A stretch of DNA of 36,126 bases from Prevotellaceae bacterium (GTDB lineage Bacteria; Bacteroidota; Bacteroidia; Bacteroidales; UBA932): NCBI GenBank assembly GCA_031270845.1, contig JAISXF010000095.1:1-36126 (forward strand), in the 5' to 3' direction. Below, one piece after another: positions 2,525 through 36,126 of this stretch. The notes under the pieces are model-generated. The model worked only from the letters and a program-made list of their open reading frames with translations, made no database searches and was not told the DNA's origin. The position numbers and the translations under genes are program-made. How positions within the stretch are numbered: the stretch's first letter is position 1; each line of letters starts with the position of its first letter.

Positions 2525-2588
2525 ATAAGCCGTCCGTAATTGATAATGGATAATCCGTAATTCGTAATTCGTAATTCGTAATTAATTA
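2525..2588 (-). repeat. ATTACGA heptamer array after the 222-aa gene
   Basis: Read on the minus strand, the TAA stop of the 222-aa gene opens a run of TTACGAATTACGA units that then degenerates into GGATTATCC-like copies. Four near-perfect units are visible. Confidence 0.85.
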
Positions 2589-3254
2589 CGGGATGATTGC
2601 GCTCAGAATTTCCGACCACGGGCCTTTTTTGCTGCTGGTGTTGACCCACCGGAGGGCAAAATAAATGGTTTTGCCGCGCTGGTCGTTCTCGAAGATAAGG
2701 GTGTAGGGCGAATTGGTATCGACGTCGGAGTGCCTCAAATCCTCCCACCGCACAACCGGCGTGTCGCTGAGCAGCCATACGATTTCGGCGCCGTGCTGTC
2801 CTTCGGGTTTGCCTTTTTTGTGGCTGCCGCCGCGTTTAAAGAAGTGAATGGTTATCCGCCCGATAACCGATGTGTCGATGTCAAAATCGGGCGACTCGGT
2901 AGCTACCGGCGCTTCGGTGTGCTCGTCCGGTATAAGGGCGATGCCCATTGCTTCGAGGTCTATATCCGTTACTAACGGGTTGCCCTGCAAAGTCCGTATC
3001 AGCGGGCGGAGCACTGTTTCGTAGTCTTCCCGCGCGTTGTTTTTTTTAGCCGTGATAACGGTTGTGCGGGTATTGGGGTCTTCGTAGGCTGCCCAGGCCG
3101 CGTCCCATACGGCTTTTCGGGGCAGCACTTCGTCGTCGAGCCAGTCGGCGTCGAGCTTCCAGGCGGTGCGTTTTGTACTTGCCGTTGTAACGATAATTCT
3201 CTGACGGACATCAAAATCGGTGTCTTTTCTGGGGATACTGGTGTTCTCTGCCAT
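2586..3254 (-). CDS. Conserved Bacteroidetes protein of unknown function
   Basis: A 222-aa protein starting MAENTSIPRKDTDFD. It has no signal peptide and no membrane segment. The N-terminal two thirds look helical, with W-rich segments (WKLDADWLDDEVLPRK, WDAAWAAY) and a DYETVLRPLI stretch. The C-terminal third is beta-rich (IVWLLSDTP, YTLIFENDQRGKTIYFALRW, KKGPWSEILSAIIP) and resembles a fibronectin-like sandwich domain. I recognise the overall pattern from uncharacterised Bacteroidetes proteins but cannot name a function. Its ATG lies 5 nt after the stop of the repeat-bearing leader ORF, so ribosomes would have to reach it through that leader. The promoter is more than 400 bp upstream. Confidence 0.7.
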   Translation of the reverse strand: MAENTSIPRKDTDFDVRQRIIVTTASTKRTAWKLDADWLDDEVLPRKAVWDAAWAAYEDPNTRTTVITAKKNNAREDYETVLRPLIRTLQGNPLVTDIDLEAMGIALIPDEHTEAPVATESPDFDIDTSVIGRITIHFFKRGGSHKKGKPEGQHGAEIVWLLSDTPVVRWEDLRHSDVDTNSPYTLIFENDQRGKTIYFALRWVNTSSKKGPWSEILSAIIP

Positions 3255-3259
3255 AATGT

Positions 3260-3667
3260 TTATAATTTATTGTTAAGGATAAGGATAAATGATTTATGCG
3301 TCTTTTGCATACCCGCGTACGCGCGGCTCGTATTCGACGACGCGCGACGCGTATTCGACGACGCGCGACTCGTATTCGACGACGCGCGACTCGTATTCGA
3401 CGACGCGCGACTCGTATTCGACGACGCGCGGCTCGTATTCGACGACGCGCGACTCGTATTCGACGACGCGCGACTCGTATTCGACGACGCGCGGCTCGTA
3501 TTCAAATACGCGGAGCTCGTATTCAAATACGCGGCGATTAATGGTGTATCAAAAAGTGGGGGAGTGGCGGTAGCATTAGACGCTGAAAAACGCGCTGGAA
3601 CAGCGGGAGTTCCGGCGCTGGGGAAGGTTGTTCCCCGATGATGCGGTATATGATTTTTGCTAATCAT
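3260..3667 (-). CDS. Leader ORF A (MISKNHI type) with a 7-residue tandem repeat
   Basis: A possible 135-aa product starting MISKNHIPHHRG. The first about 38 residues match leader ORF B at 32799 (MISKNHIVNHRG, then FPSAGTPAVPA in both). The middle is ten copies of a 7-residue unit, consensus NTSRASS, encoded by a 21-bp DNA repeat. The end reads FILILNNKL. The ATG lies only 5 nt past a strong TAnnTTTG box, so any mRNA is nearly leaderless. The stop is 5 nt before the next start codon, which suggests translational coupling. An RNA-only leader is the alternative: the first 18 nt form an inverted repeat (ATGATT...AATCAT), and GGGGAA...TTCCCC follows. Whether it is translated is unproven. Confidence 0.5.
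   Translation of the reverse strand: MISKNHIPHHRGTTFPSAGTPAVPARFSASNATATPPLFDTPLIAAYLNTSSAYLNTSRASSNTSRASSNTSRASSNTSRASSNTSRASSNTSRASSNTSRASSNTRRASSNTSRAYAGMQKTHKSFILILNNKL
3322..3534 (-). repeat. 21-bp tandem repeat, 10 copies
   Basis: Ten head-to-tail units of 21 bp, consensus on the plus strand CTCGTATTCGACGACGCGCG plus A. The first units vary at one or two positions, and the last two replace CGACGA with CAAATA. The unit is a multiple of three, so changes in copy number would lengthen leader ORF A without shifting its frame. All six frames stay open across it, which explains several spurious ORFs. Confidence 0.95.
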
Positions 3668-3672
3668 GGATG

Positions 3673-3702
3673 CAAAGGTACAACTTTTTTTGAAATTGCA
3701 AA
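3673..3702 (-). promoter_or_regulatory. Bacteroidetes promoter for leader A and the 222-aa gene
   Basis: On the minus strand TTTG (3699-3702), an 18-bp spacer and TACCTTTG (3673-3680) match the -33/-7 consensus. The start codon of leader A is 5 nt downstream. The region from the A-rich spacer onward is nearly identical to the promoter at 32764-32793. Confidence 0.85.
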
Positions 3703-8009: not shown

Positions 8010-11000
8010 CTAAATGCCAATTAAATATTCCTCGCCCATATTGTCTATTTCCTGCATGACGGCAAGCGTGTTTTTTATTGCGCTAATCATATCTTTGAGG
8101 TGTTTGAGGTCGGAAGCGTTGATCACAACGTTATCTTTAATTCTGTATTTGAGCCATTTTTCAATCGGTTTGTAGGAGCCGATTTCAAAGTTATAAACAT
8201 CGGAAGTTACAGGACGGATTTCTATTCTTTTATTGTGGGTTGTATAAATATTCAGCATATCATTATCATGGCTTATCTTTTCAATACTAAAATCGCCGTC
8301 AAAATTTGCGTCTATTTGAAGATTGAGATATTTTTTCATTCTGACAAATTCTCCGTTGTGCAGTACTGCTTCGTGATAAAAATCATCAACAGGCGTTTTC
8401 AACAAATGCAAATCAATGAGTGTTTGCCCCAGCGTTGCATATTTGTCGAATGTTTCTCTGTGGGTTGTCATGGGCACGGCGGGGAAATCGATTTTTAAAT
8501 ACTCAATGTATTTTTCTCTGTAAACTTTTGAATGCAAAACGCCATAGATGTAGGCGAGAATTTCTTCAGGCGTGGGCGCAGGGTCTAATTTTTTGAGGTA
8601 TCGTTTTATAAATTTTCCGGTGAAATTAGCAAACTTTTTTCCTTCGCCCTTAAAATTAAGTTGCAGCATTTCGGAATGTTCCAAGCCATTGTAGAAATAA
8701 AGCGGAGCTATGTAATTTTGTCCGCTGATTATGTGTAAATCAATATATTTATTAGTTACAAAAACATCCGTATAATTTTTATCTACATTTCTTGTAAAAC
8801 ACAATCCAATATTTTCTTTTTCAAAATGCTTAGCCGTTTCGTAGCGGGGATAGGCAATAAAACCCTTTGAGATTTTTGATAACGAAGTAATTCTGTTGTC
8901 AAAAGGGCGATATGCAATTTCTTGCGGATTATAATTTTTCAACAAATCTTCTTTTGCTTTTTCGATTGTCCAATCTCGGCTGTCGCAAACATTATATTTC
9001 GCGGCAATTTCCGGTTTATATAAAGGACGTATTGCCGCGGCAAGCTGTTCTAATGATTTTTGCGAATAATGCATAACGAAATCATCATTCTTTGTCTGTA
9101 TGCCGCTGTTGTAATAATTAAAAATGTCCGTCAATTTCCAAAACTTTTTATATTGTTTTATGTTTGAAAATTTTTTGTCGGTAAACCAAAAATAGGTACT
9201 ATCGGAAGGAATAATTTTCTTCCAGCGCACCGTTTTAAAATCGGTATTTTCAAGAAACGATAATTTTTCGGCGCGGGAAATTAAATGGTTATCAAGGGTA
9301 GAAAAATAAAATACAGGCTTCGGCGGCGCAACATCTTTATGTGGCCTGTTAAAATTCAACGTTTGCTGCTCTACTTTTGGAGTACTGGTTTTTTCTTTTT
9401 TATATTTTACAAAAAACGAAATGGAAACCCCCACCATAATATCAAAGATATTTTTGTCGGTGTCGCCTTTGCGGGTGTTGCCGTGCAAGTTGAGGATGTA
9501 AATTTCGTCGAACGTATTATACAGATGTTCGCGCATTTTGCGATGCGTAACACCGTCAAGAAAGCTGTTATTGGTAATTATGCCCACAATTCCATACCCG
9601 TTTTTTTCGATTTTGCGCTCGGCAAAACGAATAAATTTAATGTACAGGTCGTCCAGATTTATTTTTTTCTCATGGAGTCCGGCTTTGTATTTTTGCAATT
9701 CAGCGTCAATGATATCGCTCTTCTCCCGACTTCTCCCGTTAAAATACGGGGGATTTCCTATAATGGCTAAAAGCGCTTCCACATCTTTAACCGATTGTGA
9801 TTTTTCATATTCGCTTTTCAAATACGGCAGCAGTTCGCTGATTGAATGCTGACTGATGTCAAGCGTATTGGTGAGATAAATACCCAAACGCTCCTTTTTC
9901 CCCGGATCCAAAACAATGCCTCTGTCTTTTAAAAAGCGCGTTAAAATGGTGTGTGCAATTATGTAAGGCGTAAAAAGCAACTCAAAGCCGTAAATATCAT
10001 TTTGCACTTTTTGTTTTACGATGCGTTTATCTAAACTATCCGGATTTTCAGGAATAATTTGCTCTAAAATGGAATGAATAAAAGTGCCGGTACCACACGC
10101 GAAATCAAGGATTTTTATGCTTAAATCGCTGTAGCCATCCAAGTTGAATTTATCTTTTATTAAATAATTTACGCCGCGGGTAATGAAATCAGCCGCCTCC
10201 ACAGGCGTATAATAAACGCCGCCTTCCTTGCGGTTTTCCGTTCCGCGAAGCGTGTCGTATCGAGCCAAAAAGTCTTCATAAAGATAAACGGCAATGTTTT
10301 GCTTGCCGTTGTTGCTTTTCAAAAACTCATTGGTTATTGCCGCCGTATCAATCAAATTGATGTTCTTACCAATGTTGGTGAGCGCCATTTTTATTTCTGT
10401 AGGCAAATGCCGTATCAAATAGCCCTGTTCCAAAAATTCATAAAGCAGGCGGTATTCGTCGGGAATATTTTCAAGATAGTTCAGCTTTTGTTCGTTCAGC
10501 GGCTCGTTTGTATCCAAGCGTGCAAGCAGCAGCCCATAGACAAGCGACTGTGCGTAAACATCGCAAAAATCAGCTAATTCGTAATGGTAGTTAATGGATT
10601 TTTCATACTCGCCGAAAAGGCCTCTGAATTTGGTATAAAAACTTTCGGCGGCATTTGTTTTGTCTGCAATGTATTCGCGCAGCGCCACCGAATAATAGAA
10701 ACTTTGCGCGGCGAGCGCCGACACAAGCGTTTTTTTCGTTTTTATATAAGGATATTTGTACCCGTAAAAATCCTGCAAAAGGGTTACAAAATCAAGCCGT
10801 GCTTTGGTGTCGGCGGCAAGCGTAATATCGTGCTGCTTTTTGCCTTCCTGCAACAGAATGAACCGCGTATAATTGGTTATGATTATATTTTCGCAGGTTT
10901 TGGAATACTTTTTAATTTGCGCGCTTTCAATTAATTTATCGAGATTAAACGACGGCTTTTTGCATTCGATAAAACCTATCAGGCTTTTGAAAAGAGAGTC

Positions 11001-11228
11001 GGCGTCATTCCACACGAAAAAGTCGGGCATACCGTCAATGTCAATGCCGCTGCGGCGGTCTTCCTGCACGAGGGACGTTTTGTTCAAAAAGGGGATTTGC
11101 AACGTATTGAAAAGCGTTTCGAGCGGCGTGCGATATTCTATCTCTTCGCCGTCGGGACGGGCTGCCAAACAGGCAAGATAGGCTTGTACCTGCGGTTCGA
11201 TGGTCGCTATTAAAGTTTCGTGCTGCAT
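8010..11228 (-). CDS. Single-chain restriction-modification enzyme, type IIG / ISP-like (N6-adenine methyltransferase)
   Basis: A 1072-aa protein that should both cut and methylate DNA. An N-terminal PD-(D/E)xK nuclease is visible: GIDIDGMPDFF (Asp69) and IGFIECKK (Glu88, Lys90). A helical region precedes the gamma-class N6-adenine methyltransferase core, with GGVYYTP (336-342), the SAM-binding DFACGTGTF (375-383) and catalytic NPPY (492-495). The C-terminal half resembles the type ISP specificity domain, with IAYRPFDNR and a later GLCFTRN. There are no separate R, M or S genes nearby, as expected for a single-chain enzyme. No helicase block is visible between nuclease and methyltransferase, so type IIG is more likely than classical type ISP. 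All catalytic residues are present. It occupies the place upstream of rplC where rpsJ is normally found. The target sequence cannot be read from the protein. Confidence 0.9.
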   Translation of the reverse strand: MQHETLIATIEPQVQAYLACLAARPDGEEIEYRTPLETLFNTLQIPFLNKTSLVQEDRRSGIDIDGMPDFFVWNDADSLFKSLIGFIECKKPSFNLDKLIESAQIKKYSKTCENIIITNYTRFILLQEGKKQHDITLAADTKARLDFVTLLQDFYGYKYPYIKTKKTLVSALAAQSFYYSVALREYIADKTNAAESFYTKFRGLFGEYEKSINYHYELADFCDVYAQSLVYGLLLARLDTNEPLNEQKLNYLENIPDEYRLLYEFLEQGYLIRHLPTEIKMALTNIGKNINLIDTAAITNEFLKSNNGKQNIAVYLYEDFLARYDTLRGTENRKEGGVYYTPVEAADFITRGVNYLIKDKFNLDGYSDLSIKILDFACGTGTFIHSILEQIIPENPDSLDKRIVKQKVQNDIYGFELLFTPYIIAHTILTRFLKDRGIVLDPGKKERLGIYLTNTLDISQHSISELLPYLKSEYEKSQSVKDVEALLAIIGNPPYFNGRSREKSDIIDAELQKYKAGLHEKKINLDDLYIKFIRFAERKIEKNGYGIVGIITNNSFLDGVTHRKMREHLYNTFDEIYILNLHGNTRKGDTDKNIFDIMVGVSISFFVKYKKEKTSTPKVEQQTLNFNRPHKDVAPPKPVFYFSTLDNHLISRAEKLSFLENTDFKTVRWKKIIPSDSTYFWFTDKKFSNIKQYKKFWKLTDIFNYYNSGIQTKNDDFVMHYSQKSLEQLAAAIRPLYKPEIAAKYNVCDSRDWTIEKAKEDLLKNYNPQEIAYRPFDNRITSLSKISKGFIAYPRYETAKHFEKENIGLCFTRNVDKNYTDVFVTNKYIDLHIISGQNYIAPLYFYNGLEHSEMLQLNFKGEGKKFANFTGKFIKRYLKKLDPAPTPEEILAYIYGVLHSKVYREKYIEYLKIDFPAVPMTTHRETFDKYATLGQTLIDLHLLKTPVDDFYHEAVLHNGEFVRMKKYLNLQIDANFDGDFSIEKISHDNDMLNIYTTHNKRIEIRPVTSDVYNFEIGSYKPIEKWLKYRIKDNVVINASDLKHLKDMISAIKNTLAVMQEIDNMGEEYLIGI

Positions 11229-11473: not shown

Positions 11474-11697
11474 CTCTCCAGAGATAAAAATTATCTCTGG
11501 AGAAATAATTTCTATCTCTGGAGAAATAACACTATCTCTTGAGAGATAATTTTTATCTCTTGAGAAATAATTTTTATCTCTCAAGAGATAATTTCTTCTT
11601 CTTCAAAAAATAATTTTTATCTCTCTACAGATAACATTATCTCTCCAGAGATAATTTTTATCTCTGGAGAAATAAAAATTATCTCTGGAGAAGATTT
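11474..11697. repeat. Palindromic array with 20-21 bp period (ATCTCTsGAGA type)
   Basis: Copies of ATCTCT followed by TGAGAGAT, GGAGA or CAAGAGAT recur at 11493, 11514, 11534, 11555, 11576, 11619, 11639, 11660 and 11681, that is every 20-21 bp with one double step. A/T tracts lie between them. Each core is a near-palindrome, and the spacers are also nearly palindromic. A cleaner form of the same array starts at 36054. Confidence 0.85.
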
Positions 11698-20901: not shown

Positions 20902-21264
20902 TTAAAGATGAATATTTATGCCATTTTGGCAGAGTATAGAATATTTTATGCTATTTTGACAGGAAAGTACCTTCTGCCGGTCGGCAGAACCTGCTTTTCG
21001 ACCCAAAAGTACCTTCTGCCGGTCGGCAGAACCTATTTTTCGACCCAAATATACCTTCTGCCGGTCGGCAGAACCTACTTTTCGACCCAAAAGCGCCTTC
21101 TGCCGACCGGCAGAACCTATATTTGGGTCGAAAAGCCCCTTTTGCCGGTATTTTGGGGTTGGTTGCCCCTTGCCGGCGAGGAAAATACTACCGCTTCCAC
21201 CCCGCCCGCAAGCCGCGCCGGTATGTTTCCTTGTGTCTGTTATACCTGTATCAATCTCTTTCAT
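20902..21264 (-). CDS. Leader ORF C with a 14-residue tandem repeat
   Basis: A possible 120-aa product starting MKEIDTGITDTRKH. It contains about four copies of a 14-residue unit, consensus GSADRQKVLLGRKV, encoded by a 42-bp hairpin repeat. The ATG lies 19 nt after a TATCTTTG box with an A-rich stretch just before it, as usual for Bacteroidetes starts. The stop is 13 nt before the DUF6261 start. It has no sequence similarity to leader A, but the layout is the same: promoter, short ORF with in-frame tandem repeat, then a conserved protein. It may be a translated coupling peptide or only a structured leader. Confidence 0.45.
   Translation of the reverse strand: MKEIDTGITDTRKHTGAACGRGGSGSIFLAGKGQPTPKYRQKGLFDPNIGSAGRQKALLGRKVGSADRQKVYLGRKIGSADRQKVLLGRKAGSADRQKVLSCQNSIKYSILCQNGINIHL
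20971..21140 (-). repeat. 42-bp hairpin tandem array, last copy inverted
   Basis: TTCTGCCGGTCGGCAGAA palindromes begin at 20972, 21014 and 21056, exactly 42 bp apart, with TTTTCGACCCAAA between. The fourth (21098) has the loop reversed (ACC instead of GTC) and is followed by TTTGGGTCGAAAA, the reverse complement of the spacer, so the final unit is inverted. Spacers are conserved, which rules out CRISPR. Confidence 0.93.
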
Positions 21265-21363: not shown

Positions 21364-24186
21364 CTAATACGTTTGAGTTTTATTTACCGTCCAGCCGGTG
21401 GGAGCGAGGCCTGTGTTGCAGTTTGCGGTGCCGTCGCCAGGGTTGCCATAGCCGGAGGAACCCGGTCTCGGGTTCTGCCAGATATATACCGTTTTTCCGC
21501 TGCCGCCGGCGGGAAGTGTGCCGAATAAAGTATTGAGCGCCGCGGCGGTGAAGAGATTGGTTTGTATCTTCAGGATGTATAGCGTGGTACACTGACTTAC
21601 GTCGAATGAGGTCAAATTATTATTTTGACAGTCCAGGGTAGTTAGTTTGGTATTATACGTTACGTTCAATGAGTCCAAATTATTATTGCCACAGTTCAAG
21701 GTCACTAGCTTGGTATTACTGCTTACGTCTAATGTGCCCAATGGATTATTGTGGCAAGCCAAATAGGTAGTTGCTGTATTCTGCGACAGGTCTAATGAGG
21801 TCAAATTATTATTATAACAGTCCAACGCAACTAACGCAGTACAACTGCTTACGTCTAATGAGCCCAAATTATTATTGTAACACTGCAAGCCACGTAGCTT
21901 GGTATTACTGCTTACGTCTAATGTGCCCAATGGATTATGGCTACACAACAATTCAGTTAGCTCAGTATAATCGCTTATGTCTAATGAAGACAAATTATTC
22001 TCGCGACACCACAAGCTAATTAGCGTAGTACTCTGCGGAAGGGTTAATGTGGTCAACTCATTACTTTCACACCTCAAAGAGGTTAGCGCAGTACAACTGC
22101 TTACGTCTAATGTGCCCAAATTATTATTGTAACACTGCAAGGTCGTTAGCTTGGTATTCTTGCTTACGTCTAATGTGCCCAATAATGGAAGATCGTAACA
22201 GTACAAAGCAGTTAGCTTGATATTCTTACTTACGTCCAATGCGCCCAATAATGAATTATTGTTACACTGCAAGCCACGTAGCTCGGTATTACTGCTTACG
22301 TCTAATGAGGACAATCGATTACCGAAACAATTCAAGTCAGTTAGCTTGGTATTCTTACTTACGTCTAATGAAGACAATTGATTGCCTTGACAGGCCAAGG
22401 CCGTTAGCTCAGTATTCTTGCTTACGTCTAATGCGGACAATTTGTTACTGGGAAAGAACAAAGTAGTTAGCGCAGTATTATTGCTTACGTTTAATTCGGT
22501 CAGTTGGTTGAAGCTACAACTCAAATAAGTTAGCGAGGCACACTTTGTTACGTCCAACGCCGTTAAGCTATTAGAGGTCGATTCCAAACGGGTAATTTTC
22601 GTTGCCTGCGCGGTAATGGTATGCGTGCCGGCAGCATAGGTGTGCGATTTTCCGCTGCCGCTGGTGGTATAGGTGCTTGTTGTACCGTCGCCCCAGTCAA
22701 CGTACAGGGTACCGGTGAAGGTTGAAGCAAAAGACACGCTGCCGGTTTTGATAGTGGTCATACTGAAATACTCTCCGGTAATGGTAATAACCCCCTGCGC
22801 GGTAGTCGTGCCGCAACCGGTAGCCGTTACGGTATAAGAATGTGCGCCAACGGTGGCCGTGTTGGCTGCCGTGCCGGTAATATTTACGTTCGGGGCGCTC
22901 CAGGTATAGCTCAGGCCGGCGGGCAGGCCGGTAACGGTTACGGCGGTGGCATCGGTGGCCGCGTAGGTAATGGCGGTTAGCTGCTCGCCTGCCGCTATTG
23001 TTTGGAGGTCGGTATTTTGAGCAGACAGCAGGGCTACAACCGGGGCGGTCGTGGCGCCTATGGTAATGCAGGTGTCGGCATGGCAGCCAAAGGTATTCCA
23101 GGCACGCACACATACGGTTACACTGCCGCTTTCGGGCATCCGCACCGTAAAGGTACTGTCGCCGGCAGGCGCACAGTATTCCACCATCGGGAACTCGCAA
23201 TCAACCCCCACTACCGTATCATTACCCGTTAAATAAGGGTTGTGCGAAGAACCCGTTACCGTCTGCGTAAAGCAGTACGAGCTGCCCGCACCGGCAGAAG
23301 CCGTGAGCGTAACCGTACTGTCGGCACAGTACGTCGTCGGCGGGCTAACAAACACCGGCACCGGCGGCGGTACCACCGTTACCGTTACCGGCGTACCCGT
23401 AACAGAGCAGCCGGCAGCATTCTTTATCGCAATGGGGTATTCGGTAGTGGCCGTCAGCGAGAAGGTGGCGGCGTTCGTGGCTATCCATGTGGCGCCATCG
23501 TCAAAACTGTAGAAGGCGGCATCGGCAGCGGTGGCCGTGAGGGTCGTGGTATCACCGGCACAAACGGAGTCGGGCGCCGCAGTAAGCGCCGGCGCAGCGG
23601 GCGGCAGCGGCAGGAACCCCGGGCAGCCCGTGGCATCGGTTAGCGCGGTAATACATTCGCCGGCAAAAGTACGCGCCCCGGCGCCTAAAGAAACGCCGTT
23701 AACCACAAAGGGCGGCGTGCCGTGCAGGTCATAATGGGCGGCGCCGAGGGTGGCGTTCGGCGGGTAGTCGGTAACATAAGCGCACCAGTTAAATTTTTTA
23801 CCCGTGAGGCTGCTGCTCAGCGTAACGGTGAGCGTCGAGCTGAAGGGCACGGTGGCGTGGCCGTCGAGGTAAAAGCCGCGTCCGGGAAGCGTGCCGGTAA
23901 TAATGCTCCCCGCGCCGGCATCTACCACGGCGCCGGTAAGCGTGGCAGGCTCCCACGCGCCGAGTGTGCCGTCGGTAGCTATGGTCTGCACATCAACGAA
24001 CACCCATACGGTGTCGCGGTGGCGGGGCGGAGTGGGGGCGTTGTCCCAGAAGACGCGGAAGGTAACGGTGGGGGGTGTGGCGGCGTAGTCGGCGCCGAGC
24101 TGCTGGATTTCTACCACGCGCCCGCCCTGCCCAAAGGCCGGAGAGAGCAGCAAAAACAGTACAAAGGATAAAATAATTTTTTTCAT
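21364..24186 (-). CDS. Secreted surface protein with Ig/PKD-like domains and Cys-ladder LRRs (LRR1)
   Basis: A 940-aa protein. I chose the ATG at 24184-24186 (MKKIILSFVLFLLLSPAFG), which gives a clean signal peptide; the frame is open 11 codons further but that part is not signal-like. An N-terminal beta domain (VVEIQQLGADYA, KFNWCAYVTDYPPNATLG, YDLHGTPPF) is followed by Ig-like repeats with paired Cys, then a PKD-like WGDGT domain (about 510-560). About 16 leucine-rich repeats of 21 residues follow (consensus LDVSKNTKLTxLxCxNNxL). The Cys in each repeat recalls the cysteine ladder of Listeria internalin J. The C-terminus has no recognisable type IX sorting domain. Residues 21-500 are closely similar to LRR2 (33083). 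Probably surface adhesion or ligand binding. Confidence 0.88.
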   Translation of the reverse strand: MKKIILSFVLFLLLSPAFGQGGRVVEIQQLGADYAATPPTVTFRVFWDNAPTPPRHRDTVWVFVDVQTIATDGTLGAWEPATLTGAVVDAGAGSIITGTLPGRGFYLDGHATVPFSSTLTVTLSSSLTGKKFNWCAYVTDYPPNATLGAAHYDLHGTPPFVVNGVSLGAGARTFAGECITALTDATGCPGFLPLPPAAPALTAAPDSVCAGDTTTLTATAADAAFYSFDDGATWIATNAATFSLTATTEYPIAIKNAAGCSVTGTPVTVTVVPPPVPVFVSPPTTYCADSTVTLTASAGAGSSYCFTQTVTGSSHNPYLTGNDTVVGVDCEFPMVEYCAPAGDSTFTVRMPESGSVTVCVRAWNTFGCHADTCITIGATTAPVVALLSAQNTDLQTIAAGEQLTAITYAATDATAVTVTGLPAGLSYTWSAPNVNITGTAANTATVGAHSYTVTATGCGTTTAQGVITITGEYFSMTTIKTGSVSFASTFTGTLYVDWGDGTTSTYTTSGSGKSHTYAAGTHTITAQATKITRLESTSNSLTALDVTKCASLTYLSCSFNQLTELNVSNNTALTTLFFPSNKLSALDVSKNTELTALACQGNQLSSLDVSKNTKLTDLNCFGNRLSSLDVSSNTELRGLQCNNNSLLGALDVSKNIKLTALYCYDLPLLGTLDVSKNTKLTTLQCYNNNLGTLDVSSCTALTSLRCESNELTTLTLPQSTTLISLWCRENNLSSLDISDYTELTELLCSHNPLGTLDVSSNTKLRGLQCYNNNLGSLDVSSCTALVALDCYNNNLTSLDLSQNTATTYLACHNNPLGTLDVSSNTKLVTLNCGNNNLDSLNVTYNTKLTTLDCQNNNLTSFDVSQCTTLYILKIQTNLFTAAALNTLFGTLPAGGSGKTVYIWQNPRPGSSGYGNPGDGTANCNTGLAPTGWTVNKTQTY

Positions 24187-24227
24187 ATTAATAATTTTTT
24201 TTGTTATAAAACATATCAAAAGACGCG

Positions 24228-32763: not shown

Positions 32764-32793
32764 GTTGTATTTTCAAAAAAAGCACTACCTTTG
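32764..32793 (+). promoter_or_regulatory. Promoter for leader B and LRR gene 2
   Basis: TTGT (32764-32767), an 18-bp A-rich spacer and TACCTTTG (32786-32793). From TTTTCAAAAAAAG through the box it is nearly identical to the promoter of leader A, and the leader ATG is again 5 nt downstream. Confidence 0.85.
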
Positions 32794-32798
32794 CACCC

Positions 32799-32933
32799 AT
32801 GATTAGCAAAAATCATATAGTAAATCATCGGGGAAAGGCCTTCCCGAGCGCCGGAACTCCCGCAGTGCCCGCGTGTTTGTGGGCATTTAATATTACCCCC
32901 CCCCCCCCCCCCAACTTTTTACTTAACAGTTAA
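32799..32933 (+). CDS. Leader ORF B (MISKNHI type), interrupted after a 17-C tract
   Basis: As sequenced it encodes 44 residues: MISKNHIVNHRGKAFPSAG, then TPAVPACLWAFNIT, a proline run from the C tract and FLLNS. It is homologous to leader A in promoter, start, the first 38 codons or so, and the ACC..CCCC..ACTTTTT context. If the tract had 16 or 19 C instead of 17, the frame would stay open without a stop to TAA at 33073-33075, 7 nt before the ATG of the LRR gene, giving about 91 residues. This matches the geometry of leaders A and C. The present length looks like an OFF state, unless it is a sequencing error. Confidence 0.55.
   Translation: MISKNHIVNHRGKAFPSAGTPAVPACLWAFNITPPPPPNFLLNS
32896..32912 (+). 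repeat. Poly-C tract, 17 C
   Basis: An uninterrupted run of 17 C inside leader ORF B. Tracts of this length are prone to slipped-strand mispairing. In leader A the same position reads ACCGCCACTCCCCCA, so the pure C run seems derived by mutation or expansion. Confidence 0.95.
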
Positions 32934-32982
32934 TTACAGCGCTTTTGCCAAAGCACAGACGCTCTCTATAACAAACGGTATT

Positions 32983-33032
32983 GCCTGTACCGAACCGTAC
33001 AGGCTCTGTGCGTTTCCGCATTTGGGAACGCA
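32983..33032 (+). promoter_or_regulatory. Two tandem hairpins in the leader of LRR gene 2
   Basis: GCCTGTAC/GTACAGGC (32983-33004) forms a perfect 8-bp stem. TGCGTTTCC/GGGAACGCA (33009-33032) forms a 9-bp stem with one G-T pair. They are 4 nt apart, with 6-nt loops and no T-run, so they resemble regulatory RNA structures more than terminators. Confidence 0.6.
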
Positions 33033-33082
33033 ACCTTCGTTTTCGGATCATTCATTAAAAATTCGTTTAAATTAATATCGTA

Positions 33083-35959
33083 ATGAAGCATTTCTTTTTA
33101 ATCGCAATCTTATTTTTCTCCCTCTCAGCATGGGGGCAAACGCGCGTTGTCGAAATCGAACAGCTCTCAACCGCCTACGGCGCCGCGCCGACCGTTACCT
33201 TCCGCGTCTATTGGGACACCGCGCCCGTTGGCGCCAAACATTTGGACAGCGTATGGGTGTTTGTCGATTTCCAGCGCATCAACGCCGGCAATGTGTTGGA
33301 CAGCTGGGCGCCGGCCACCCTCACCACCCCCGCCACCGTGAGCGCCGGCACGCCGAGTTACCCCTTCCAGCCTACGGCGCGCGGCTTCTACCTGCGCGGT
33401 AATGCCGCCGGCGCATTCAGTTCTACCGTAACAGTAGCCCTGCAAAACCTGGCCGACGCCAAATTCAACTGGTGCGCCTACGCTACCGACTACCCGCCCA
33501 ACGCCACCCTCGGCGCCGCGCACTACGACCTGCACGGCACCCCGCCCTTTGAGATTAACGGCTCTTCTTTAGGCTCCGGTGTCCGCACCTTCTCCGGCGA
33601 ATGTATCACAACCCTGACCGACGCCACCGGCTGCCCGGGCTTAATCCCCACGCCGCCCACCGCGCCGATACTCACCGCCTCGCCCGACAGTATTTGCACC
33701 GGCGACACCACAACCCTCGCCGCCACCGCCGCCGATGCCGCTTTCTACAGCTTCGATGACGGCGCCACATGGATAGCCACGAACGCCGCCACCTTCTCGC
33801 CAACGGCCACAACCGAATACCCCGTTGCCATAAAGAACGCCGCCGGCTGTAGCGTAACCGGCGCGCCCGTTACCGTTACGGTGGTGCCGCCACCCGTGCC
33901 TGTATTTATTAACCCGCCGGCGACCTACTGCGCCGACAGCACGTTTGACCTCACCGCCTCCGCAGGCGCGGGCAGCTCGTACTGCTTTACGCAGACGTAC
34001 ACCGGCGCCTCGCACAACCCCTACCTTTCGGGGAATGATACCGACGCCGGCGTCGATTGCGACTTCCCGACCGTTGAATACTGCTCGCCTTCCGGCGACA
34101 GCGTCTTCACGGTGCGTATGCCCGAAAGCGGCAGCGTAACCATCTGCGTGCGGGCATGGAACGCCTTCGGTTGCCCGGCCGACACGTGCATTACCATAAG
34201 CGCCACGCCGCTGCCGGCCTTCGCATTAATTTCAACACAAGGCACCGACGCCCAAACTATTTCATTAGAGCAGCCCGTAACTACCATTCGATACACGACC
34301 ACCGACGCCTATAGCGCCGCCACCGCCGTAACAGTTACCGGCCTGCCCGCCGGCCTGAGCTACACATGGAATGCCCCGAATATAGAAATTACCGGCACGG
34401 CAGCCGCCTCGGCCACCGTCGGCGCACATTCCTACACCGTAACGGCCGCCGGTAACTGCGGCACCACCACCACGCAGGGCGTCATTACCATTGCCGGCAA
34501 CTTCTTTAGCATGGTTACGACCAACCCCGACAGCGTGTATTTCTCTGTAAACTTCACCGGTACCCTATACATTGACTGGGGCGACGGTACAAGCACCTAC
34601 ACCACCGGCAACGGCCAGAAAAAGCATTTCTATACCGACGGCCTCACGGCGCATACCGTTACCGCGCAGGCGCCGGTAATTACGTATTTGCATTGTATCA
34701 GTAATAAATTAACCGCGTTAGACGTAACGCAGGCGCCCGCGCTAACTTCTTTGCTGTGTTACGACAACCTTCTAACCGCATTGGATGTAAGGCAGAATAC
34801 CGCAGCTACCTATTTGAATTGCCACACCAATCAATTGTCGGCATTGGACGTAAGTAAAAATACCGCGCTACTCGTTTTGGCTTGTAACAACAATCAATTG
34901 TCGGCATTAGACGTAAGGCAGAATACCGCCGCTACTTATTTGGATTGTAACACCAATCAATTATCGGCATTAGACGTAAGGCAGAATCCCGCGCTACGCA
35001 CGTTGAATTGTGGCAGCAATAAACTGCCCTCATTGGACGTAACGCAATGCACTTTGCTAACTTCTTTGCGTTGTGACGACAATCTCTTGACCTCATTAGA
35101 CGTAACGCAGCATCCCGCGCTACTCTATTTGCACTGTGCCCACAATCTCTTGCCCTCATTGGACATAAGTCGGAATACCGCCGCTACCTATTTGGATTGC
35201 AGCTACAATCTCCTGTCCTCATTGGTCGTAACGCCACATTCCGCGCTAAGGACATTGTATTGCTCCAGCAATAAATTGACGACATTGAACGTAACGCAGA
35301 ATACCTTGCTAAGGGATTTGCAGTGTTCCATCAACCAATTGTCCGAATTGGACGTAACGCAAAATACCGACTTACGCGGGTTGCAGTGTAACAGTAATCA
35401 ATTGAAAGTATTAAACCTGTGGGAGAATACCCTCTTAACCGGGCTGCAATGCAACAGTAACATATTGGACTCATTAGACCTGCAACGGAACCCCCTGTTA
35501 AATGCGGTGCAATGTAGGGGCAATCGACTGACCAAATTAAACATAACGACCTGTACCGTGCTCACACAATTGTATTGCGACGGTAATTTATTGCCGCAAT
35601 TAGACGTAAGCAACAATACCAATTTAATCATATTGTCCTTTAATTCTAATCTAATAAGTTCTATGGACCTCAGCGCCAATACCGCGCTAACCTATTTGAG
35701 TCTTAGCGGCAATCAATTTACGGAATTAGATCTGACGGGCAATCCCGCGCTTACAACGGTGGCCTGTAGAAGCAACCTCTTCACCGCCACGGCGCTCAAT
35801 GACCTCTTCCATACCCTGCACAGCAACCCGCTACCTGACAAAACGGTTTATATCTACAACAACCCGAAGTCGAACCCGGGCGCAGGCACCGGCACCGCCG
35901 GCTGCGACCAAAGCATCGCTACCGGCAGAGGCTGGGTGGTAAATACAGCAGCCTATTAA
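33083..35959 (+). CDS. Secreted surface protein with Ig/PKD-like domains and Cys-ladder LRRs (LRR2)
   Basis: A 958-aa paralogue of LRR1. MKHFFLIAILFFSLSAWGQ is a clear signal peptide. The N-terminal 500 residues align with LRR1 almost throughout (KFNWCAYATDYPPNATLG, YDLHGTPPF, FYSFDDGATWIATNAATF). The WGDGT PKD-like domain is at about 500-530. About 17 LRRs of 21 residues follow, consensus LDVxQNTxLxxLxCxxNxL, nearly all with the ladder Cys. It ends in GRGWVVNTAAY without a visible type IX sorting domain. The repeat region is clearly more AT-rich than the N-terminal part. Expression may depend on leader B, whose ON form would end 7 nt upstream. The stop opens an AACGATG array. Confidence 0.9.
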   Translation: MKHFFLIAILFFSLSAWGQTRVVEIEQLSTAYGAAPTVTFRVYWDTAPVGAKHLDSVWVFVDFQRINAGNVLDSWAPATLTTPATVSAGTPSYPFQPTARGFYLRGNAAGAFSSTVTVALQNLADAKFNWCAYATDYPPNATLGAAHYDLHGTPPFEINGSSLGSGVRTFSGECITTLTDATGCPGLIPTPPTAPILTASPDSICTGDTTTLAATAADAAFYSFDDGATWIATNAATFSPTATTEYPVAIKNAAGCSVTGAPVTVTVVPPPVPVFINPPATYCADSTFDLTASAGAGSSYCFTQTYTGASHNPYLSGNDTDAGVDCDFPTVEYCSPSGDSVFTVRMPESGSVTICVRAWNAFGCPADTCITISATPLPAFALISTQGTDAQTISLEQPVTTIRYTTTDAYSAATAVTVTGLPAGLSYTWNAPNIEITGTAAASATVGAHSYTVTAAGNCGTTTTQGVITIAGNFFSMVTTNPDSVYFSVNFTGTLYIDWGDGTSTYTTGNGQKKHFYTDGLTAHTVTAQAPVITYLHCISNKLTALDVTQAPALTSLLCYDNLLTALDVRQNTAATYLNCHTNQLSALDVSKNTALLVLACNNNQLSALDVRQNTAATYLDCNTNQLSALDVRQNPALRTLNCGSNKLPSLDVTQCTLLTSLRCDDNLLTSLDVTQHPALLYLHCAHNLLPSLDISRNTAATYLDCSYNLLSSLVVTPHSALRTLYCSSNKLTTLNVTQNTLLRDLQCSINQLSELDVTQNTDLRGLQCNSNQLKVLNLWENTLLTGLQCNSNILDSLDLQRNPLLNAVQCRGNRLTKLNITTCTVLTQLYCDGNLLPQLDVSNNTNLIILSFNSNLISSMDLSANTALTYLSLSGNQFTELDLTGNPALTTVACRSNLFTATALNDLFHTLHSNPLPDKTVYIYNNPKSNPGAGTGTAGCDQSIATGRGWVVNTAAY

Positions 35960-36053: not shown

Positions 36054-36126
36054 CTCGAGAGATAGAAATTATCTCTCGAGAGATGGTTTCTATCCCTCGA
36101 GAGATAATTTTCATCTCTCGAGAGAT
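36054..36126. repeat. 21-bp palindromic array, ATCTCTCGAGAGAT, cut by the window end
   Basis: The 14-bp palindrome ATCTCTCGAGAGAT starts at 36071 and 36113, with a one-base variant at 36092 and a partial copy ending at 36063. The spacing is exactly 21 bp, with 7-bp A/T-rich spacers. It continues beyond the window. It is the same class as 11474-11697. Confidence 0.92.

Follow-up and report, generated by a model that had tools for sequence, protein, structure and literature searches.

The window, a 36,126-nucleotide stretch of DNA from a Prevotellaceae bacterium, carries two copies of a short leader cassette, one ahead of a gene for a 222-aa protein (copy c1, minus strand) and one ahead of a gene for a 958-aa LRR protein (copy c2, plus strand). 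BLASTN aligned 3701-3558 (minus) with 32765-32908 (plus) at 116 of 144 positions (81%, no gaps, E = 5e-36), and in both copies the -7 box TACCTTTG is followed by a 5-nt gap and then by ATGATTAGCAAAAATCAT. This 144-bp alignment in front of two dissimilar genes confirms as real the original prediction of a duplicated MISKNHI cassette preceding unrelated proteins. Both promoters fit the Bacteroidetes consensus (TTG / TAnnTTTG), and with the ATG only 5 nt behind TTTG the transcript would be nearly leaderless. The 222-aa protein had no sequence match in Pfam, NCBIfam or PDB.

The original prediction had read the shared block as a portable regulatory leader. It did not mention the poly-C tract and two-stop motif that mark the 3′ end of this block, nor the open frame leading on to the gene. 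Together, these three features point to phase variation rather than to a plain regulatory leader; the portable part of the original reading is supported. At its assembled length of 17 C's, the c2 tract brings the leader into a closed frame that stops at 32931, ending ...PNFLLNS* at +18; 16 or 19 C's would select the open frame, with the ORF stopping 7 nt before the ATG at 33083. Judged from these frames, the LRR gene is OFF as assembled. By the same reckoning, c1 has lost its C run and is locked in the ON frame because CCGCCACTCCCCC replaces the homopolymer.

Table 1. Positions in the window of the two cassettes and the genes behind them
Feature	Coordinates	Strand	Remarks
c1 promoter	3673..3701	-	-7 box TACCTTTG at 3680-3673
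c1 leader ORF, MISKNHIPHHRGTTFPSAGTPAVPARFSASNA	3571..3667	-	Read from the sequence
c1 degenerate C tract, CCGCCACTCCCCC	3558..3570	-	No homopolymer
c1 post-tract motif, ACTTTTTGATACACCATTAATCGCCGCG	3530..3557	-	Both closed-frame stops (+6, +17) retained
c1 21-bp tandem array, 9.8 copies	3319..3524	-	ON-frame translation (RASSNTS)n
c1 complete ON-frame ORF, 135 aa	3260..3667	-	Stop 5 nt before ATG 3254 of the 222-aa gene
222-aa protein gene, putatively controlled by c1	2586..3254	-	Homologues behind cassettes in several other genomes
c2 promoter	32765..32793	+	TTG 32765-32767; -7 box TACCTTTG 32786-32793; sequence common to other copies
c2 leader ORF, MISKNHIVNHRGKAFPSAGTPAVPACLWAFNI	32799..32895	+	32 codons; ATG 5 nt after TTTG; near-leaderless
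c2 poly-C tract, 17 C	32896..32912	+	Read from the sequence
c2 post-tract two-stop motif, AACTTTTTACTTAACAGTTAATTACAGCG	32913..32941	+	Stops at +11 and +18; family-wide alignment
c2 sole open (ON) frame	32913..33075	+	TAA end 7 nt before the LRR gene
958-aa LRR gene, putatively controlled by c2	33083..35959	+	Predicted signal peptide-like N-terminus, LRRs

Several other features of the window were noted. A 951-aa LRR paralogue (21364-24219, minus strand), 58.5% identical to the 958-aa protein, has a plain promoter upstream and no cassette. A third leader ORF (21264-20902, minus strand; 120 aa) has its own TATCTTTG promoter and no C run; it crosses a 42-bp inverted-repeat array (20964-21149), ends 13 nt upstream of the ATG (20888) of a DUF6261 gene, and looks like a nonswitchable version of the cassette design. 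Intergenic 21-bp tandem arrays with a palindromic unit (CTCTCGAGAGAT...) lie at 11474-11692 and 36054-36126; arrays of 21 bp (two helical turns) and of 7 bp (TTACGAA, GTCTATT) are common between genes across these genomes. The 1072-aa protein encoded at 8010-11228 (minus strand), which weakly matches a BREX-type adenine methyltransferase model, is probably a type IIG-like restriction-methylation enzyme.

Anatomy of the cassette family and its proposed frame gate

The assembly to which the window belongs (G000; 116 contigs, 85% complete) contains about eight MISKNHI-type copies. Beyond c1 and c2 there are at least six, two of them on contig C71 and one each on C104, C49, C14 and C12; those on C71, C104 and C49 sit at contig ends, as expected where repeats and homopolymers break assemblies. 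The possibility that c1 and c2 are the only copies, products of a single recent duplication, is ruled out by these and by further copies in the genus. For the wider search, which the original prediction had proposed, every tract of at least nine C's was collected from nine genomes of the genus (g1), together with some from a sister genus (g25), and tracts were kept if a promoter lay 60 to 200 nt upstream, yielding some 42 cassettes. The 3′ part, consisting of the C run and the motif, is far more widespread across the genus than the MISKNHI part.

The order of elements is constant: promoter, ATG, an open leader of 23 to 43 codons, T(A/T/C)TA, 9 to 19 C's, the motif (typically AACTTTTTGATnnnCAGTTARTTACAGCG in g1), a spacer of 60 to 490 nt that mostly contains a 21-bp tandem array, and a gene on the same strand. 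In 39 of 42 cassettes, the ATG of the open leader lies no more than 70 nt from the -7 box. The leader frame, chosen for its openness, has no stop in 1237 codons; the other two frames have 85 in 1232 and 60 in 1203. In about 40 cassettes the open leader frame encloses a tract of C9 to C19, a long pure run of the kind expected in homopolymer phase variation. Two side observations concern this region: locus L287, from genus g9, carries two tandem poly-C cassette tails (C21 and C19) before a SusC-like gene, and a TATACCTATATATATAGTA-like box with a CCTTGnnnnnCAAGG hairpin recurs between the motif and the 21-bp array at many loci (L164, L165, L274, L275; about +110 to +150).

Past the tract, exactly two frames are closed within about 30 nt in 32 of 42 cassettes, usually by stops at +7 and +18 nt. 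When the ON frame was defined as the third frame by the motif alone, irrespective of length, and the closed frames were read on past the motif stops, 17 of 20 ON frames came as close as 60 nt or less to the following ATG, against 10 of 40 closed frames (Fisher p = 1.7e-5), and median frame lengths were 310 (ON) and 104 nt (closed; p = 1.2e-7), although the cassette copies are related and these counts are accordingly not fully independent. For 23 of 29 cassettes the ON stop is placed -14 to +55 nt from the ATG, the closeness of stop and start that translational coupling calls for; in the other 6 of 29 over 60 nt separate the end of the open frame from the recognized gene. Overlaps of the ATGA type occur at L205 and L216 and, in g9, at L287 (SusC-like) and L303. 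The gate is kept when the sequence changes. The L194 motif has 2 extra nt and shifted stops, yet two frames are closed and one is open; the same gate is built from GAAACCGTTGCGAGAGTAAGG at L182, L183 and L204, from AGATACTCACGTAGTTAAAG at L196, and in g25 from GCTGAAAATCAGC, where the open frame again stops at the gene (L274, L275, L276, L281). Periods divisible by 3 are found in 23 of 26 tandem arrays inside the spacer, compared with 46 of 89 outside it. From this anatomy, tract length would decide which frame reaches the gene, as phase variation by frame selection demands.

One might instead suppose that the product of the open frame is a genuine small protein, fast-evolving and itself phase-variable, with 7-residue repeats, and that the downstream gene is merely next in the operon. 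The ORFs do reach about 200 codons with regular heptapeptide repeats, which, like those of surface antigens, vary in number and sequence. However, they have no signal peptide, no family match and no synonymous excess; repeat composition is not conserved between copies; and some spacers (L200, c2, L196) are just 25 to 60 codons long and lack repeats. We regard this explanation as decidedly improbable.

Tract length differs even between close copies. Paired cassettes of one genome whose leaders are 93 to 98% identical nearly always differ in C number, with tracts of 14/12, 13/14, 17/15, 14/12, 19/11 and 13/18 C's, and a SusC-type gene shared by G000 and G006 at 87.5% identity has tracts of 19 and 15, all of these lengths coming from metagenome short-read assemblies in which a run may be a few bases too long or too short. 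In the assemblies, 14 of 39 cassettes have the leader in the ON register and 25 in the OFF register, an ON share near the one-third that free drift of the tract would give. Both RNA and DNA polymerase tend to slip on long homopolymers, and poly-A/T runs have been described as slippery for polymerases (PMC3711429), which could favor a programmed slippage, transcriptional or ribosomal, at the C's, giving a fixed mixture of frames and graded rather than ON/OFF expression. Such a mechanism should conserve tract length, however, and with lengths ranging from 9 to 19 and differing between near-identical copies, we give it almost no credence.

Constraint on the leader

Substitutions are spread evenly over codon positions 1, 2 and 3, both in the leaders (87/81/92, p = 0.70) and in the open spacer (98/84/87). 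The leader peptide is thus not conserved; what is kept is openness, and the leader and spacer peptides look disposable. A functional leader or spacer peptide was rejected for want of a synonymous excess or a family match, and a sensor leader peptide or attenuator because the conserved peptide that it should show is contradicted by the codon-position counts. Even rates also fit an untranslated region.

The leaders fold better than dinucleotide shuffles, with a mean z of about -1.75 over 42 cassettes (c2, -2.4; the second C71 copy, C71b, -5.0), which implies some constraint on RNA or DNA rather than on the frame. Compensatory pairs number 5 of 18 in the G004/G006 leaders and 2 of 8 in the MISKNHI set. 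Besides openness, the leader is thus constrained in its RNA or DNA structure. End-to-end pairing between the leader and the bases just ahead of the tract is hinted at in several families (duplex z averaging -0.9, with 40% lower than -1), with weak compensatory support. With regard to the two inverted repeats proposed originally at the RNA level, GGGAA/TTCCC is kept in the four closest copies, and in the other subtype one pair has changed on both sides. ATGATT/AATCAT is intact in c1 and c2 only; C71 has lost this start-codon hairpin, copies of the C104/C49/C14 type have it at a shifted position, its register is not kept, and it was dropped as a conserved element.

These folding scores and compensatory pairs, together with the lack of codon-position bias and the existence in a g20 genome of copies with no visible leader ORF, would suit a structured, mainly untranslated regulatory RNA leader (an attenuator or riboregulator) in which the ORF and C run are incidental. 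That explanation does not account for a leader frame free of stops, for a pure C homopolymer followed by two closed frames and one open one, or for the ending of the open frame at the next ATG. In addition, neither the window nor 13 cassette loci gave a match to Rfam 15 at the gathering threshold, bar a tRNA elsewhere, so that a known structured RNA family was rejected. An RNA leader of this kind seems to us unlikely, though deserving of some weight.

Copying, downstream genes and taxonomic spread

In several pairs of cassettes (L208/L210, L233/L234, L186/L189, L173/L176), the match begins at the promoter's -33 region and extends across the leader, after which similarity is lost; the upstream flanks of such pairs are about 25% alike. 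The left boundary is the promoter, and the right boundary varies from +30 to over +110 nt. The finding, in several genomes, of cassettes that are 94 to 98% identical, bounded by the promoter and set in unrelated flanks supports the earlier view of a portable 5′ cassette that is not inherited with its gene. So does c1 itself. Its leader is nearest to those of c2 and C71, in its own genome, whereas its protein is nearest to the products of G006 loci L216 (68% over 164 aa) and L208 (63% over 68 aa), both of which have the G006 type of leader. These differing affinities indicate that cassettes are exchanged or homogenized within a genome, and leader families are genome specific. Vertical inheritance also occurs, since the 87.5%-identical SusC-type gene has kept a related leader in both genomes. 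The simplest guess is that cassettes are copied by recombination between cassettes.

The dispersed, near-identical copies with a sharp promoter boundary and unrelated flanks, and the genome-specific leader families, could also be attributed to a nonautonomous, MITE-like mobile element that carries a promoter by chance and affects genes as a by-product. Against this, the cassette is always near a gene and co-oriented with it, and recombination between cassettes accounts for the spread. No common flanking inverted repeat was found in five cassettes, which had short A/T-rich or array-internal repeats only, and no phage or virus match was obtained. We consider a mobile element very improbable. More specifically, derivation from a MITE or insertion sequence was rejected on account of a left end without inverted repeat and the variable right end, an invertible promoter on account of the matching flanking repeats missing from the five cassettes, and a phage or viral origin for lack of a match.

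The genes behind the cassettes, whose listing had also been proposed, encode SusC/TonB receptors (L170, L175, L181, L198, L212), LRR proteins with a common N-terminal domain (c2, L189, L194, L200), BACON-like and other lipoproteins (L178, L184), DUF6261 proteins behind poly-C cassettes of two other genomes (L234, L241), and members of the 222-aa family (c1, L164, L165, L167, L182, L205, L208, L216, L237). By class, these would be usual targets of phase variation.

Among 84,980 species genomes scanned, the g1-type motif is essentially confined to termite-gut Bacteroidales MAGs, most of them labeled "Prevotellaceae bacterium"; five unrelated records with the motif look like chance matches. Across the family (199 genomes), 143 sites of TTTA type stand before nine C's, compared with 34 for a reversed control pattern, and such sites are present in 16 of 25 genera. 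After the tract, many loci of the family continue with TGATAATCA or TGAAAATCA and then GTTAC. The frame design itself was seen in g1, g25 and some g9 loci. In g20, three copies (L329, L330, L331) share a conserved sequence of about 300 nt containing TTTA, poly-C and TGATAATCA with no visible leader ORF, possibly a noncoding relative of the cassette; the lack of an obvious leader ORF suggests that the wider element may have another or older role.

A putative portable switch

The best explanation, and in our judgment a probable one, is that this is a portable phase-variation cassette that acts as a frame-gated switch for the gene behind it. Transcription would start at the cassette's own promoter, and the leader ORF would be translated into the C run, the number of C's being altered in living cells by slippage during replication. 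In two of three registers, the ribosome would meet a stop 7 to 24 nt past the tract and be released with 100 to 490 nt still to go to the gene. The third register would let it cross the spacer, which has no stops and whose 21-bp repeats preserve the frame by their length, and terminate at or just before the ATG of the gene. There, it may reinitiate, or its passage may have kept the RNA open and protected from Rho. Translated poly-C gives poly-proline, on which ribosomes can stall, but a C run as pure as this one points to slippage on DNA. Coupling, RNA opening and relief of Rho polarity are general routes by which such a link could operate (PMC12548453).

A broader version of this proposal is that the promoter, throw-away leader, C-run selector and two-stop gate make up a dedicated, gene-independent phase-variation module, copied by recombination before new genes so that any gene may become randomly switchable, and diversified into genome-specific leader families with related forms in other genera of the family. 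For this version, we find the case evenly balanced.

Homopolymer phase variation is well known from poly-C and poly-G tracts in other phyla, with examples in Neisseria (siaD, poly-C), Bordetella (bvgS/fim, poly-C) and Campylobacter (poly-G). Slipped-strand phase variation by homopolymeric C/G tracts has been reviewed (PMC3711429). As in those systems, a long pure C run appears to set the frame, surface proteins are among the targets, and ON and OFF states are mixed; here, the argument that the cassette works like phase variation is built on its anatomy. Unlike in those systems, where the tract lies in the switched gene or alters promoter spacing, the cassette tract lies in a separate, disposable leader that is copied before unrelated genes. 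The position of the upstream stop at, or overlapping (ATGA), the next start resembles translational coupling and Rho-dependent polarity (PMC12548453). Coupling, however, normally joins two functional genes, whereas the upstream ORF of the cassette apparently has no valuable product and is interrupted by a switchable tract. GeneTack lists frame transitions due to phase variation and to translational coupling as separate classes (PMC3711429).

Within the Bacteroidales, inversion is a described route of phase variation (PMC5903667, PMC8748976), and the cassette resembles invertible promoters of that order in its upstream promoter and its surface-protein and SusC-type targets. It differs from them in that no flanking recombinase sites were found and in that the variable part is a homopolymer within a leader ORF. 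Like bacterial regulatory uORFs and leader peptides (PMC12121999), the cassette places a short ORF, presumably translated, between promoter and gene, but it has no conserved sensor peptide, and what is kept is the frame rather than the peptide sequence. In the open-access literature, we found no description of homopolymer phase variation in Bacteroidales or Bacteroidetes (in itself weak evidence), and no account there of phase variation combined with coupling in a dispersed leader cassette, of upstream-ORF phase switches, or of the 21-bp repeats.

Phase variation by slippage is usually built gene by gene; a portable cassette would confer switching on any gene. It would also offer a ready-made switch with which to separate the contributions of reading frame, reinitiation and Rho polarity as the gate. 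For annotation, the leader ORFs resemble proteins and probably are none. If the proposal is true, it explains how surface receptors, LRR proteins and proteins of unknown function become switchable in uncultured gut symbionts, and the cassette would predict from raw sequence which of the symbionts' genes vary.
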